Shown piece by piece: positions 20,614-29,655 of a stretch of DNA of 42,528 nt. The notes beneath the pieces are model-generated. The model had not been told where the DNA came from, did no database searches, and worked only from the letters and a program-made list of their open reading frames with translations. Position numbers and translations under genes: made by a program. Positions within the stretch are counted from its first letter, which is position 1. Each line of letters opens with the position of its first letter. This DNA comes from Burkholderiales bacterium (GTDB taxonomy: Bacteria; Pseudomonadota; Gammaproteobacteria; Burkholderiales; JACMKV01), in NCBI GenBank assembly GCA_013695435.1, contig JACDAM010000041.1, positions 1-42,528 of the forward strand, read 5' to 3'.

Positions 20614-20637
20614 GAAGTGGCGTGCGGGATAGACTAA

Positions 20638-21003
20638 GAGCTTGTCCGTAAATAATTCAGTCCTGCGCCGGGATCAATTTGAGCGCAGGCCGCGAAGCAA
20701 GACGCGCCGTTGTGTCGGCCACAACCAGGCGGGCGCGGACACGTTGGCGGCGACCCCGCCCGTTTGCGGGTAGCGCCCGCGAGGCCTGCTCCCGCAAACG
20801 GCCGTTTTGCGGTAACGGGTCGCAGGCCTCCTTGCGACAAAGGGATGCGCTCACATTGATCCCGGCCCGAAGGGTTGGCGCCCGAAAGCGCGTCTGCCGC
20901 GTTGCGAGCCTTGCCCAATGCATGACATTCGGGCTGCGACTCGCGACTTGCATCCATCGCTTTGGGGCGCCAACGCAGGGCTGAATTATTCACGGACAAG
21001 CTC
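20638..21003. mobile_element. MITE-like non-autonomous element, 366 bp, 30-bp terminal inverted repeats, TAA duplication
   Basis: The left end (GAGCTTGTCCGTAAATAATT..., 20638-20667) and the right end read on the other strand (GAGCTTGTCCGTGAATAATT..., 20974-21003) are identical at 28 of 30 positions. TAA flanks both ends directly (20635-20637 and 21004-21006), a 3-bp target duplication. No transposase frame is present. The interior folds strongly: CGTTTGCGGG/CCCGCAAACG at 20761-20770 and 20791-20800, and GAGGCCTGC/GCAGGCCTC at 20781-20789 and 20822-20830. Size, ends and lack of a gene fit a MITE mobilised by a related IS; GAG termini and a TAA duplication recall the IS5 superfamily, but that is inference. 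It sits between phaM and pmbA. Confidence 0.8.
20649..20677 (-). promoter_or_regulatory. Possible outward promoter in the MITE end, toward pmbA
   Basis: On the minus strand TTGATC (20672-20677) and TATTTA (20649-20654) are separated by 17 bases and point to pmbA. The -35 fits at four positions and the -10 at only three, so this is weak. Elements of this kind often supply outward promoters, which would matter here because the insertion lies immediately upstream of pmbA. Confidence 0.2.
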
Positions 21004-21010
21004 TAACAGG

Positions 21011-22497: not shown

Positions 22498-22831
22498 GGC
22501 TTATGCTCGAAAACCCGAGCTAAACATGGAGTCTCGGCTTGAGGTGCCGGGAAGTCATCAAGACTGTTAGAATCAGTTGGCCAGGCGCGCGCAACACCAG
22601 CAACCGCAGGTACGGGGAAGGTACCTGATTCGAATAAATTTTCAATGCGATGTAAAGGACTTTTCCTGGCATGGCATGTGAGTTGCTGACAGTACGGTCA
22701 TAGGGAGACGAAAGCCGAGGGGTCGCGCAACCGAAGATCTCGATCGGCAGACTCAGCAGCAGCAAAGCAAATGACCCATCGGCCGCTTCACGTCGATGCG
22801 TTTGCCGTCTCGCCCCATTCAACAAGAAAAG
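22498..22831 (+). other. Intergenic region upstream of the HDOD kinase
   Basis: 334 bases. A hairpin GCTCG-AAAACC-CGAGC just after the Slp-like gene may end its transcript, though no T-run follows. A second stem AGGTAC-ggggaag-GTACCT occurs near 22610-22630. I looked for a c-di-GMP (GEMM) riboswitch because of the c-di-GMP regulator downstream and did not find its conserved bases. No convincing promoter identified. Confidence 0.4.
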
Positions 22832-24997
22832 ATGAGCGAGCTTCCACAGAAACTACGGGAACGGATAGCAGGCACAACACTGCCGTCGCTCCCGCACGTC
22901 TTGTTGAAGGTGCTGCGGACTTTCAATAGCGAGCGGGTTAATATCGCTGACCTGAGCCGTTTGATCAATCTCGACGTTGCGCTGCGCAACAGAATCGTTG
23001 CACTGGCCAACCCCTTGAGCAACCAGAAGCCTGCTCAAATCGTTTCGCTCGAACAGAGCATCGTGGCACTTGGGCTCGACACCGTCCGGACGATTGCAAT
23101 CAGCGCCGCGATCGCCGAGGTATTCAAACCGCAATCGCCAATTCGGCGAGCCGAAGCGAAACGTCTGTGGCGGCATGCCGCGCACGCGGCTGCCATCGCA
23201 AAAAGGCTGGCTGAGCTCACGCAGTACATGCATCCCGAAGAAGCGCATCTGGCCGGCCTGCTGCACGACGTCGGCCAGCTCGTGCTGGCCGCCGCGTTTC
23301 CGGAGCAGTACGCGCAAGTCCTGGCAGAGCCGGATGAACTTCGGCAAATCGATATCGAGCGCCAGCAATTCGGCGCCGATCACGCGCAAGTGGGCTTTTG
23401 GTTGATGGGCCACTACCAACTGCGTTCCATCATCGGCGACGCGGTCCTCTATCATCACGAGCCCACAGAACGGATAGTCGACGCGCACTTATTGGTCAGG
23501 ATCGTCAGTGCGGCGCACGCGTTATCGTCAGACATCGCCGCACAGGTTGCGGGCGGAATCGAACTGGCCGAGCGGCTATTCAAGTTGCCCGCGAACGAAA
23601 TTCTTGCCGTCGTCGAACACGCCCGCAAAGAGGTGCGGCAGGACGCTGACTATCTCGCGCTGAATATCGAAAAAGGCGTCGAGTCGATAGCACAAGACAC
23701 CGCGAAGCGCAGAAAGCCGGTCGAAATCGAGTTGAGCGATGATGACAATCCGATTGATGCAGAGCTCGCCGAAGAAATCCGCAGCATCATGCTGTTGAAC
23801 GGGGTCCGGCAGGCGATTGCCGCGGCTGCCGGAGAACCGGCGGTGCTCGCCGCGATCCGGAAAAGCGCACAAATCCTGTTTGGCGTCGATGCGACTTTCT
23901 TCATCTATGAACCGGGCAGTAACCTGCTGCTCGTCAGACGCGCGTCCGGCGATGCGGCATCAAACGACCAGATCAGCGACCAGATCGTCATTCCATACGA
24001 TTCGGGAGATAGCTTGATCGCGCAAGCCGTGCGCGGCGATGCGCCGCTCAACTCATTCAGCCGCAACGCCGAGCTTGCCATCATCGACCAACAGGTGATC
24101 CGCGCGACCCAAAGCGCGGGGATTTTGTGCCTGCCGCTGATCATCGGCGAGAAGACGCTGGGGGCGATTGTGTTCGGCGTCAACGCCGAAACCGCGGCAG
24201 CGCTGAGCGAGAACATGCATTTCATCAGGGCATTCGCGAATCTTGCCGCGAGCAGTCTGGACGCGTTCAGAAGCCGTGAGGCTTACGAGAGGCTCATCGA
24301 AGCCAATCGGGAAGCTGAAACCGCGGGTCACTTGCGCAAGATCGTGCACGAGGTCAGCAATCCGCTGTCGATCATAAAAAACTACATCAGCATATTAGGT
24401 ATGAAGCTTGGCCCTGACGATCCCAGCCGGCAAGATCTCGAGGTGCTGAACGAGGAGATCGATCGCATCGTCGGCATCATTCGCAGCTTGTCCGATCCGC
24501 ACACGCCTGCTGTCGATATGACCGCGGAGGCCGATCCCAACCTGATCGTCTCGGAAGTCGTCGAGCTGTGCCGGAAATCGCTGTTTGCACCGAACCGGAT
24601 AAGCCTGAAACTCGATCTTGATCAATCGATGGAGACCGTTGCTACCAACAAGAACGGCGTCAAACAGATTTTGCTAAATCTGGTGAAAAATGCAGCGGAA
24701 GCGATGGTTGACGGTGGCACGCTGTCTCTTTCGACGGCAGACAGCGTCAACCGCGACGGCGAAGACTACGTGGCAATAACCATCAGCGACACCGGCCCGG
24801 GTATCCCGCCTTATGTTATGTCCCATCTGTTCGAGCCGGGCAACAGCAGCAAAGGCAATGGCCACGCCGGATTGGGTCTGGCCATCGCCAAAAACATCGT
24901 CAAGGAATTGCGAGGCTTCATTACGTGCCGAAACACACAAAGAGGGGTTTCATTCGAAATACTGCTGCCAAAAAAACCCTCTGGATCGATCGCCTGA
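22832..24997 (+). CDS. HDOD-GAF sensor histidine kinase
   Basis: 721 aa from the ATG at 22832 (weak AAGAAAAG upstream; an in-frame start 12 codons earlier is possible). Residues ~8-210 are an HDOD domain (LPSLPHVLLKVLRTFNSERV, AHLAGLLHDVGQLVLAAAFP, GHYQLRSIIGDAVLYHHEP). Residues ~330-480 are GAF-like (AIRKSAQILFGVDATFFIYE, GILCLPLIIGEKTLGAIVFG). A HisKA region carries the phospho-acceptor His near residue 506 (VHEVSNPLSIIKNYIS). The HATPase domain follows (NLVKNAAEAMVDGG, ISDTGPGIPPYVM, GHAGLGLAIAKNIVKEL). No membrane segment, so it senses a cytoplasmic signal. The next gene, 77 bases on, encodes a REC-headed c-di-GMP enzyme and is the likely phosphotransfer partner. Confidence 0.93.
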   Translation: MSELPQKLRERIAGTTLPSLPHVLLKVLRTFNSERVNIADLSRLINLDVALRNRIVALANPLSNQKPAQIVSLEQSIVALGLDTVRTIAISAAIAEVFKPQSPIRRAEAKRLWRHAAHAAAIAKRLAELTQYMHPEEAHLAGLLHDVGQLVLAAAFPEQYAQVLAEPDELRQIDIERQQFGADHAQVGFWLMGHYQLRSIIGDAVLYHHEPTERIVDAHLLVRIVSAAHALSSDIAAQVAGGIELAERLFKLPANEILAVVEHARKEVRQDADYLALNIEKGVESIAQDTAKRRKPVEIELSDDDNPIDAELAEEIRSIMLLNGVRQAIAAAAGEPAVLAAIRKSAQILFGVDATFFIYEPGSNLLLVRRASGDAASNDQISDQIVIPYDSGDSLIAQAVRGDAPLNSFSRNAELAIIDQQVIRATQSAGILCLPLIIGEKTLGAIVFGVNAETAAALSENMHFIRAFANLAASSLDAFRSREAYERLIEANREAETAGHLRKIVHEVSNPLSIIKNYISILGMKLGPDDPSRQDLEVLNEEIDRIVGIIRSLSDPHTPAVDMTAEADPNLIVSEVVELCRKSLFAPNRISLKLDLDQSMETVATNKNGVKQILLNLVKNAAEAMVDGGTLSLSTADSVNRDGEDYVAITISDTGPGIPPYVMSHLFEPGNSSKGNGHAGLGLAIAKNIVKELRGFITCRNTQRGVSFEILLPKKPSGSIA

Positions 24998-25063
24998 TAA
25001 TTTACATTCGAAATTAGCGCGCCTAAACTCGCTCAAAACGTTTTGACGGTTCAGGCGACGACA

Positions 25064-25077
25064 GGGAGAAGAGAATC
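25064..25077 (+). promoter_or_regulatory. Shine-Dalgarno and AUC start codon of the c-di-GMP response regulator
   Basis: GGGAG at 25064-25068 is followed after six bases by ATC at 25075, in frame with a complete receiver domain. The frame is closed upstream by TAA at 25024-25026, and no ATG, GTG or TTG lies between that stop and the receiver's first strand, so the true start must be a non-standard codon (or a sequence error). This is the only position with a good ribosome-binding site. Confidence 0.55.
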
Positions 25078-27276
25078 AGCGCTATCGAATACCCGGTCCC
25101 CGAGTACCGGGCGTCCTCTTCAAAAATACTGATTGTTGACGACGAACCGCGGCTGCGCACCAGTCTCAGACGGCTGATCGCTCCGCACGGCTACGCGCTG
25201 GACCTGTGCGGCAGCGGCAGCGAAGCGATTGCCAATCTGCAACGCGCCCGCTTCGATCTAATTTTGCTCGATCTTGTGTTGCCCGACATGACCGGGCTCG
25301 ACGTCATGGAATTCATCAGCGGTAAACGACTGGATACCACGGTGATCGTCGTCAGTGGCGATACGTCCATCAATTCCGCAATCGGGACCTTGCGCCGCGG
25401 CGCCTACGATTTCATCCGCAAACCGTACGAGCCTGAAGAGCTCCTGAAAGCGATCGATAATGCGCTGCGCAAACGTTACCTCGAAAAAATAAATCGCCGC
25501 ATCAGCGTCAAGCTCGAACATTCAGAGCGCTCCTATCGCTATCTGGTCGACAGTTCACCCGATATCATCTACACGCTGAATCAGCAGGGCAACTTCAGCT
25601 TCCTCAATGACCGCATCGAGAGCCTGCTCGGCTTCGCCAGGGATGAACTGCTGGGCAAGCACTACACGGCGATTATTCATGATGAGGATTGCGATCGCGC
25701 GGCCTACGTGTTCAACGAGCGCCGAACCGGCGAGCGCGGCGCACGCAACGTCGAACTGCGGCTCAAATGCAAACAGGGTTCCGAGCGATATCGTCTGTTT
25801 GCGACGAATTACATCACCGTCGTGCTGAATGCAATGGGCGTATACAAAAACGGCGGCGGCGTCCAGCCGATGCTGTTCGCCGGCACGCATGGCGTCGCGC
25901 GCGACATCAGCGAGCGCAAGAAGGCCGAAGATACGATCAGCTATCAGGCTTACCACGACATGCTGACTGACTTGCCGAATCGGGCATTGTTCAAAGACAG
26001 ACTCGGCCTCGCGATAACCCACGCCCAGCGCAGCGGCCACCTGCTCGCGATGATGTTTCTCGACCTTGATCGCTTCAAGCTGGTGAACGACACCCTGGGT
26101 CACGTGAAGGGCGACGAATTACTGCAAGCTGTCGCGCAGCGTCTCAAAAATACCTTGCGCAAGGGCGACACGCTGGCGCGCGTCGGCGGCGACGAATTCA
26201 CGTTGCTGCTGCCGGAAATTAACAGCCGGGACGATGCGGCTTTGATCGCCCAGAAAGTACTCGATGAGCTGCGGCGTCCATTCCTGATCGAGGAGCAGGA
26301 CATTTTCTCGACGGTCAGCATCGGCATCGCCGTATTCCCGGACGATGGCGACGGCATCGACGATCTGATCAAGAATGCCGACATGGCGATGTACCACGGC
26401 AAATGGGAAGGCAAGAACAACTATCAGTTCTATAGCAAAGCCATGAACGTCGTGTTCCAGCAGCGGCTGGCGGGCGAAAGCGAATTGCGCAAGGCGCTCG
26501 ATCGCGACGAGTTCGTGCTCCACTACCAGCCGCAAGTCAATATCGTAAGCCGCAAAATAATCGGCATGGAGGCCTTGATCCGCTGGCAGCATCCGACCCG
26601 CGGGCTGGTCAGTCCGGCTGAATTTATGCCACTTGCCGTAGAAACAGGCCTGATGCCAAGGATCAGCGACTGGGTTTTGCGACACGCATGTGCGCAGTTG
26701 CGGTCGTGGCGCGAAGCCGGCTTGCCGCCAGTACGCGTCGCGGTCAATCTCTCACCCCAGGATATCGAGCAGTCGCGCTTCGTCGAGAAAGTGCTGGGTG
26801 TGCTGCAGGACAATTATTTCGAAGCCAACGCGCTTGAAATCGAAATCACCGAGAACGTCATGATGCGCGACATCGAAAACACAATGACCAAATTGAGCCG
26901 GCTAGGCGCGCTCGGTGTGAAGATTGCGATCGACGACTTCGGTATCCACTATGCGTCGCTCAACTACCTGAAGAAGTTTCCAATCCACACCATTAAGATC
27001 GATCAATCGTTCGTGCAGGACATCACCTCCGACGCGAGTGATGCGCCGATCATTACCGCCATCGTGGCCATCGCGAAAGGCTTTAGGCTGAATTTGATTG
27101 CGGAAGGCGTGGAAACATTGCGCCAGCTCGAAGTGATACGTGCGCTGCACTGCGTTGAAATGCAGGGCTTTCTGTTCAGCGCCCCATTGTCGCCCGCGGA
27201 CGCGACAAGAATACTTGCCAATCAGCAAGAACTCTTTCTGCCTCTCAATCATCGGAACGACGTTTCCGAACATTAG
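25075..27276 (+). CDS. Response regulator with REC-PAS-GGDEF-EAL domains (c-di-GMP turnover)
   Basis: 733 aa if started at ATC 25075. REC: KILIVDDEPRLRTSL, phospho-acceptor near Asp66 in LLDLVLPDM, and the conserved Lys in FIRKPYEPEELL. PAS ~140-270: RSYRYLVDSSPDIIYTLNQQ. GGDEF ~285-455: RKGDTLARVGGDEF has an intact active-site motif and an RxxD inhibitory site five residues upstream. EAL ~470-720: MEALIRWQHPTRGLVSP, EIEITENVMM, IDDFGIHYASLNYLKKF, KIDQSFVQ and LNLIAEGVETLRQLE. Loop 6 reads DDFGIHYASL instead of the usual DDFGTGYSSL, which may lower phosphodiesterase activity. If the start were placed at the first TTG (25264) the receiver would be cut in half, so that start is wrong. Cognate kinase: the gene just upstream. 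Confidence 0.9.
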   Translation: MSAIEYPVPEYRASSSKILIVDDEPRLRTSLRRLIAPHGYALDLCGSGSEAIANLQRARFDLILLDLVLPDMTGLDVMEFISGKRLDTTVIVVSGDTSINSAIGTLRRGAYDFIRKPYEPEELLKAIDNALRKRYLEKINRRISVKLEHSERSYRYLVDSSPDIIYTLNQQGNFSFLNDRIESLLGFARDELLGKHYTAIIHDEDCDRAAYVFNERRTGERGARNVELRLKCKQGSERYRLFATNYITVVLNAMGVYKNGGGVQPMLFAGTHGVARDISERKKAEDTISYQAYHDMLTDLPNRALFKDRLGLAITHAQRSGHLLAMMFLDLDRFKLVNDTLGHVKGDELLQAVAQRLKNTLRKGDTLARVGGDEFTLLLPEINSRDDAALIAQKVLDELRRPFLIEEQDIFSTVSIGIAVFPDDGDGIDDLIKNADMAMYHGKWEGKNNYQFYSKAMNVVFQQRLAGESELRKALDRDEFVLHYQPQVNIVSRKIIGMEALIRWQHPTRGLVSPAEFMPLAVETGLMPRISDWVLRHACAQLRSWREAGLPPVRVAVNLSPQDIEQSRFVEKVLGVLQDNYFEANALEIEITENVMMRDIENTMTKLSRLGALGVKIAIDDFGIHYASLNYLKKFPIHTIKIDQSFVQDITSDASDAPIITAIVAIAKGFRLNLIAEGVETLRQLEVIRALHCVEMQGFLFSAPLSPADATRILANQQELFLPLNHRNDVSEH

Positions 27277-27550
27277 GGCCTATTCACACCTAAATCATGC
27301 CCGCGCTTTGTTCTCGCGGGACGAAATGCTAGGCGGACGGCGCTGTGCGTCCAGAATTTACCGGCTTTAAGACCATCGACAAATTTGCAAAGGGTTATCG
27401 GGTGGTTTACGGATAGCGGAACATGAAGGCTGGCGCCCACCGCGCGGAAACCGGCTTGACAAAAGCGGCCGACATAACCGCTTGGACATCTGTAGACCAG
27501 ACGGCAGCGCGACGAAAGTATCGGTGCTGCCGCTGGCCTTCCTGCAGCCT

Positions 27551-28111
27551 TTAGTTTGGCCGATTGCCAGACATCGGAAAAGGCCAGGCGCCTGGAACAG
27601 GAGCTGGTTTTTCCGATTCCGATGCTTCGCTCGGCGTTGAGGTTACCGATCCGGTTGGCTTGACCACTGGTTTGGCTGCCGGCATTGCGGCCGGCTTTCT
27701 CGCAGCTGGTATTGCCGCCGCTTTTCTGGGCGCTGCTGTTTTCGGCGCAACCTTTCTGGCGACCGGTTTTTTCGCAGCGGCAGGTTTAGCAGCTTTGGTG
27801 GCGGCTTTTTTAGCGGCGGGTTTCTTCGCCGCCGTCTTGCTCGCGGATGGCTTTTTGGCCGCTGCCTTTTTAGCGGCAGGTTTCCTGGCCGCTGGTTTCT
27901 TCGCCGCTACCTTTTTAGCGGCAGGTTTATTCGCAGCGGTTTTCTTGGCCGCTACCTTTTTAGCGGCAGGTTTCGCTTTGGCTGCGGGCTTTTTCGCTGC
28001 CGTTTTTTTAGCAGCCGGCTTCTTCGCCGCCGCTTTCTTAGCAGGTTTCTTGGCCGCCGATTTCTTGGCCGCCGGCTTTTTCGCTGCACTTGCTTTCGGT
28101 TTTGTTGCCAT
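27551..28111 (-). CDS. Lys/Ala/Pro-rich histone H1-like (AlgP-type) DNA-binding protein
   Basis: 186 aa from ATG at 28111, which has AGGAGG seven bases upstream. The protein is almost wholly tandem KKPAAKK / KKAAAKKPA units for ~130 residues, with a less repetitive tail rich in Pro, Ala, Val and Ser that ends [14 protein letters not shown]. Such proteins are disordered, very basic and bind DNA non-specifically, like the C-terminal tail of eukaryotic H1 and Pseudomonas AlgP; a nucleoid role is inferred. The low-complexity DNA also gives a long open frame on the plus strand, but that frame would be an implausible Ala/Gly/Phe polymer and lacks a ribosome-binding site. Confidence 0.85.
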
Positions 28112-28485
28112 GTCCAACCTCCTGTTCAAGTTATAGGAACGTCCGTTTCAACCGCAACGCTACCAATAGCCGCGTGCATATGGCAAAGGCTGGACGCACG
28201 CGTCCAGCCTTCTTGCATTGGCTATTACTGCTACAACAGCGATGATCCACGAAGCAGAATGGTCGCCAAAGCCCTGCGCTCGCCAAAAGCTTCTCTCGAA
28301 AAAGTGCGATTTAACAGTGCCCCGTTTCCAGTCCGCGTTCCTTTATCCTCGCTTGTTGATCTGCTCGTCCGTTTCGAAACATCCGGCAACCCTGGCTCCT
28401 GGTCGGCGAGGAATGCTTCCGTAGACGTTAAGGTTGATTTCGGCGGGTCCCGTTTATGACAGTGATCCGCGACGGGCAGCGAAGG
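28112..28485. other. Spacer between nrdB and the histone-like gene
   Basis: 374 bases with no supported gene. It must hold the end of the nrd transcript and the promoter of the histone-like gene. A strong hairpin at 28188-28209 divides it. Nothing else was recognised. Confidence 0.4.
28185..28214 (-). terminator. Hairpin, probable end of the nrdA-nrdB transcript
   Basis: GGCTGGACG-CACG-CGTCCAGCC (28188-28209) is a perfect 9-bp stem with a 4-base loop. On the minus strand TTT follows the stem directly; on the plus strand TTCTT follows. It could stop transcription either way, but only the minus strand has a gene (nrdB) ending upstream, about 275 bases away. Confidence 0.5.
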
Positions 28486-29655
28486 TCAATCCCAATTCAG
28501 TGCGCCTCCCGTCTGATATTCGGTAACGCGCGTTTCGAAGAAATTCTTCTCCTTCTTCAGATCGACCATTTCCGACATCCACGGAAACGGATTGGTAGCG
28601 CCGACGAACAGGACATCAAGTCCGATCTGCTGGCAGCGGCGATTCGCGATGAAGCGCAGATATTCCTTGAACATCGGCGCATTCAAACCGAGCACGCCGC
28701 GCGGCATCGTATCTTCCGCGTAGCGATACTCGAGTTCAACACCGCGCTGAATCAAGCCGCGAATTTCTTCGCGGAATTCGCTCGTCCACAGATGCGGGTT
28801 TTCCATTTTTATCTGGTTGATCACGTCAATGCCGAAATTACAATGCATCGATTCATCGCGCAAGATGTATTGATACTGTTCTGCCGATCCAGTCATTTTA
28901 TTTTGCCTTCCGAGCGCAAGTATTTGCGTAAATCCAACATAAAAGAACATTCCTTCCATGATGCACGCGAATACGATCAGGCTTTTCAGCAACTGCTGAT
29001 CGGTTTCCGGTGTGCCGGTTCTGAATTCGGGATTGGTCAGCGTTTCGATGAACGGGAGCAGAAATTCATCCTTGTCGCGAATACTGCCGACCTCGTGATA
29101 CATGTTGAACACCTCTCCCTGATCGAGGCCGAGAGATTCGACGATGTACTGATAGGCGTGCGTATGGATCGCCTCCTCAAACGCCTGCCGCAGCAAATAC
29201 TGGCGGCATTCGGGATTGGTGATGTGGCGATATGTGCCAAGCACAATGTTGTTGGCGGCGAGCGAATCGGCAGTCACGAAAAAACCGAGGTTGCGCTTGA
29301 CGATCAGCCGCTCGTCGTCGGTCAGGCCGTTCGGATCTTTCCACGTCGCGATGTCGCGGCTCATGTTGATTTCCTGCGGCATCCAGTGATTCGCGCAGCC
29401 GGCCAGGTATTTGTCCCATGCCCATTTGTATTTGAAAGGGACGAGCTGATTTACGTCGGCGCGGCAGTTGATGATCTGCTTGTCCTCGACTGTCACGCGG
29501 CGCGTCGCGTTGCCCGCGGTGTAGCGCTCGTCGCTTGCTCGCCGGTCTGCCGCTGGCTCGACGATTTTCTGCTCGCTCAATACCGCGCGCGTCTGACTGC
29601 CGGCAAAACCTTGCGCTTCGTTTTCGCCGCCGTGCCCGCTTTCAAAGCTCAACAT
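28486..29655 (-). CDS. nrdB: Ribonucleotide reductase class Ia, beta subunit
   Basis: 389 aa from ATG at 29655, which has AGGAGAG upstream; an earlier in-frame start is unlikely. It houses the diiron-tyrosyl radical cofactor that feeds the alpha subunit. Iron ligands and radical Tyr are visible: the first Asp in [14 protein letters not shown], the helix [14 protein letters not shown] (Glu, His three later, radical Tyr four after that), [13 protein letters not shown] and [14 protein letters not shown]. The C-terminus ends with an aromatic-rich tail near [10 protein letters not shown] used for docking to NrdA. It follows nrdA after an unusually long 320-base gap. Confidence 0.97.

Follow-up and report, generated by a model that had tools for sequence, protein, structure and literature searches.

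A predicted AUC start codon for a c-di-GMP response regulator gene in a Burkholderiales genome

Where would translation begin on a gene that encodes a complete response regulator, but that offers the ribosome no canonical start codon ahead of its first domain? This question is raised by a c-di-GMP response regulator gene in the window (the whole stretch of 42,528 nucleotides that we analyzed), which comes from one genome, assembled in 302 contigs.

An intact response regulator beside a histidine kinase

The gene, located at 25075..27276 (+), comprises 733 codons plus the stop when counted from an ATC at 25075, and its Pfam matches describe a receiver-PAS-GGDEF-EAL protein. Its frame is open for 749 codons, from the last in-frame stop 5' of the receiver (TAA, 25024..25026, +) to 27276. 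A sequence-only reading of this DNA had described the encoded receiver as complete, which is confirmed by a full-length match to the Pfam Response_reg profile (PF00072; about 91-95.6 bits) at 25126..25455 (+), corresponding to residues 18-127 counted from the ATC. In the same numbering, the PAS domain (about residues 154-239), the GGDEF domain (residues 292-449; 174 bits), and the EAL domain (residues 470-704; 253 bits) all score above the Pfam cut-off. The protein retains (i) the acidic pair, the phospho-Asp, the Ser/Thr, and the Lys of the receiver (in VDDE, LLDL, SGD, and KPY, respectively), as well as (ii) the catalytic motifs GGDEF, EALIRW, DDFG, and EGVET, together with an RxxD inhibitory site (RKGD). 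Judged by these domains and motifs, the gene product is a c-di-GMP response regulator with intact receiver, PAS, GGDEF, and EAL domains, predicted to make or break c-di-GMP.

Upstream of the regulator, at 22796..24997 (+), an open reading frame with Pfam matches encodes a histidine kinase of the HDOD-GAF-HisKA-HATPase_c type. The kinase stop precedes the ATC by 77 nt, the gaps at orthologous loci being mostly −4 to 106 nt, and a kinase homolog lies directly 5' of the regulator in 29 of the 32 orthologous loci checked. The kinase is the likely partner of the response regulator, whose receiver it would phosphorylate. A frameshift out of the kinase frame was rejected as the source of the regulator, given that the kinase frame ends in TGA TAA (24995-25000), that frame 2 then stops at TGA 25130, and that no convincing slippery site is present.

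The start region

As the sequence-only reading had noted, the frame lacks ATG, GTG, and TTG codons from TAA 25024 up to the receiver, and the first such codon is a TTG at 25264..25266 (+; from the list of open reading frames). This absence largely extends to the other frames, with no ATG or GTG in any of the three across 24998-25132, and with a sole TTG (25043) that lies in frame 2 and has no Shine-Dalgarno (SD) sequence (+1.8 kcal/mol). An indel joining the gene to an upstream start was rejected on the same grounds. The proposed start codon, ATC (AUC in the mRNA; 25075..25077, +), is located 17 codons before the ILIVDDE segment of the receiver. It follows GGGAG (25064-25068) after six bases, exactly where the earlier reading had placed it, and the SD sequence AGGGAG (25063..25068, +) forms a predicted anti-SD duplex of −8.2 kcal/mol for this ATC. 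A second in-frame ATC (25084..25086, +) is a weaker alternative start, with a duplex of −7.1 kcal/mol and a poor spacing of 15 nt from GGGAG.

The TTG at 25264, by comparison, has no SD sequence (+0.1 kcal/mol). The prediction that a gene caller's start at this TTG would halve the receiver proved accurate, as only positions 48-110 of the Response_reg profile would be kept (43 bits), and the first 47 positions, along with the acidic pair, would be lost. In a caller's annotation, the c-di-GMP enzyme would be left with only half of its receiver, and its connection to the kinase gene 5' of it would be obscured.

Taken by itself, the SD-ATC pair is suggestive rather than decisive, because when the leader is subjected to dinucleotide shuffling, 4.65% of the resulting sequences have a near-cognate codon (counted as AT[ACT] or CTG) in a plausible place behind an equally strong SD sequence. 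The leader RNA does not fold more strongly than its shuffles (z = +1.03), and we therefore make no structural claim for the arms of a perfect 6-bp inverted repeat, CCCGGT/ACCGGG, which is present at window 25092-25111 and begins 18 nt into the coding sequence counted from the AUC.

AUC in the same genome and canonical starts in the orthologs

Thirty receivers were examined in the genome, namely the studied gene, which lacks a canonical start, one truncated at the end of a contig, and 28 others, each with a canonical start. The infC gene of this genome (L140, G000:C155) reads TTTTGGAGGTTAGACT-ATC-GCT-CAA-GAA, with the ATC located behind GGAGG, and infC of a same-genus sister genome (L143, G001:C378) has an identical start region (GGAGG TTAGACT ATC GCT CAA GAA). 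Among 20 genomes sampled from the order, 13 have ATC and 7 have ATA where infC starts, with one of the latter also having an ATG two codons upstream. By homology, the start of the genome's own infC is AUC; a caller restricted to ATG, GTG, and TTG would instead place it at a GTG that lies 18 codons further inside the open frame. Since infC begins with AUC in both this genome and its sister, and with ATC or ATA throughout the sampled order, AUC is an initiation codon that the lineage appears to use.

We also surveyed 1.17 of the 2.97 Mb (39% of the genome, as 100 pieces and the window; 866 coding-like open reading frames with both stops) for coding potential 5' of the first canonical start combined with an SD sequence and a near-cognate codon, a crude criterion that uses codon log-odds only. 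The first threshold missed infC by one codon, and a relaxed version recovered it. Of the 26 open reading frames listed, several look on inspection like frameshifts or in-frame stops. The AT[ACT] candidates with an SD duplex of −7 kcal/mol or lower were infC (−10.5 kcal/mol), the studied gene (−8.2 kcal/mol), L223 (−7.6 kcal/mol), and a weak case in L169. A third candidate AUC start, at L223:1468, was rejected, as a frameshift explains this frame better. The clean cases, in which a canonical start is absent and a well-spaced near-cognate codon lies behind a strong SD sequence, were infC and the studied gene, and an approach that recovers both is applicable to any genome.

Apparently frameshifted or stop-interrupted genes were seen at L223:1357 (+), L161:1913 (+), L195:1753 (−), and L176:10147 (+), which indicates that the assembly holds errors or real pseudogenes. 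Separately, an open frame of 673 codons whose N terminus resembles a signal peptide (L179:6734 onward, +; G000:C78) has no canonical start before codon 31, and it may either start at a CTG without an SD sequence or contain an in-frame TGA after ATGGAAATGCGC.

A match to the regulator at E <= 1e-200 was found in 43 of 399 sampled genomes of the order. We read the start regions of 41 orthologs, with a best identity of 59%, which belong to the receiver-PAS-GGDEF-EAL regulators that this order carries next to HDOD-GAF histidine kinases. In all 41, the start codon is ATG or GTG, and it precedes the receiver core by 9-40 codons, compared with 17 codons for ATC 25075. The SD sequence at this ATC (−8.2 kcal/mol) is beaten at only five of 32 orthologous starts. 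The three orthologs that start at GTG have strong predicted SD duplexes of −7.4 to −8.5 kcal/mol, which fits a strong SD sequence compensating for a weak start codon. None of the 41 orthologs, all distant (<=59% identity), has a near-cognate start, which is thus not conserved at this distance, and the gene is missing from the one same-genus genome. As far as sampled, the near-cognate start appears confined to one genome, and the family of the nearest ortholog itself comprises one genome only. The sequence-only reading had pointed to a conserved canonical start elsewhere in orthologs as evidence against it. Such a start is indeed present in every ortholog, but at an equivalent position rather than elsewhere, which makes the AUC a lineage-specific departure.

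The same-genus sister genome (87% complete) contains neither the kinase nor the regulator, at the conserved neighborhood or elsewhere. In a comparison of the sister locus (L087, G001:C48; 2144-3261) with window 27502-28635, DNA similarity stops at window 27502; the sister genome retains an AlgP-like gene, homologous to window 27551-28129, which adjoins adk instead of the kinase-regulator pair. From this comparison, the genus has seen either a gain or a loss of the pair. Because a sister species does without it, the pair is possibly not essential, and the gene could be undergoing decay. Elsewhere in the window, a dispersed repeat with related inverted ends (near 20630 and near 21006) occupies 20630-21006; partial copies of it are numerous in the sister genome, and it resembles a small mobile or palindromic element.

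Competing explanations and comparison with known near-cognate starts

Taken together, the SD sequence, its spacing, the position of the orthologous starts, the intact protein, and the AUC of the genome's own infC make AUC initiation the best-supported reading. We conclude that translation of the response regulator probably starts at AUC 25075, as had been proposed, while the AUC codon itself has no counterpart in the orthologs. That every ortholog has ATG or GTG would also be expected if the base at 25077 were miscalled in the consensus or represented an allele of a minority strain, in which case the population would have ATG and the gene would be ordinary. A G at this position would create an ATG behind a good SD sequence, and the assembly, fragmented into 302 contigs, includes several apparently frameshifted genes. 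However, consensus sequences rarely carry single-base substitutions, and no comparable startless gene occurs among the 28 other readable receivers. We regard this explanation as unlikely.

It is quite improbable that the gene lost its start codon by a recent mutation and is now silent, with little or no full-length protein being made, and is heading for loss. While such decay would agree with the absence of the kinase and the regulator from the sister species (87%-complete genome), and with an AUC shared by no ortholog, the 733 codons and all of the motifs are intact, the strong SD sequence is retained, and AUC is known to support initiation. Initiation could also occur elsewhere, at AUC 25084, AUA 25126, CUG 25129, or TTG 25264 (with a truncated receiver), or at TTG 25043 followed by a frameshift. 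Among these, AUC 25084 is within reach of the same SD sequence (−7.1 kcal/mol), albeit at 15 nt, and a start at TTG 25264 would leave GGDEF-EAL complete, while destroying a receiver that is conserved in all orthologs. Neither TTG 25264 nor TTG 25043 has an SD sequence (+0.1 and +1.8 kcal/mol, respectively), and there is no convincing slippery site between frame 2 and frame 1. A start at any of these other places is very unlikely.

If translation does start at AUC 25075, this codon would be decoded by the initiator tRNA as formyl-Met, with the SD sequence six bases 5' making a weak AUC usable. Starts at AUU, AUC, and AUA generally give low synthesis, which is raised when IF3 is scarce. The AUC would accordingly be expected to keep synthesis of this receiver-controlled c-di-GMP enzyme low, and a shortage of IF3 would increase it, a behavior also expected of the genome's own AUC-start infC. 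The sequence-only reading had drawn the comparison with the AUU start of infC, and this comparison is well founded; by analogy with infC and sigR, low expression and IF3 dependence of the response regulator are plausible. That the regulator and infC share an IF3-dependent control through AUC, with c-di-GMP turnover increasing as IF3 becomes limiting, is a tentative proposal that we consider doubtful. If true, it would wire initiation fidelity to a second-messenger pathway, tying a lifestyle-switch enzyme to translation initiation as sigR is tied to it for oxidative stress in Streptomyces. To our knowledge, proven near-cognate starts outside infC are few, and they are invisible to gene callers.

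IF3 discriminates against near-cognate starts and regulates infC, which starts at ATT in E. coli and at ATC in Streptomyces (PMC5472188). The response regulator resembles infC in its near-cognate AUN codon behind a strong SD sequence, the codon being AUC in this genome's own infC and in that of Streptomyces (PMC5472188). The unusual start of infC, however, is conserved across genomes, whereas that of the regulator occurs in one genome, where control by IF3 is predicted from the likeness; the orthologous receiver-PAS-GGDEF-EAL regulators all start at ATG or GTG. Streptomyces sigR, which is repressed by IF3, offers a further parallel, in that a regulatory gene distinct from infC combines a strong SD sequence with an unusual start (PMC5472188), but its GTC is conserved in the genus and was tested by mutants and IF3 dosage, while the ATC of the response regulator is predicted. 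Outside infC, near-cognate starts have also been described for S. aureus cvfC1 (AUU) and ccpN (AUA), which have extended SD sequences and give roughly 10-30% of AUG output (PMC13009471), and for Listeria rnhC, whose ATC start is experimentally confirmed (PMC13068326). The starts of these three genes are experimentally mapped and conserved, and their functions are unlike that of the response regulator. Near-cognate starts are thus already known in bacteria, and the gene studied here would add one to their number.
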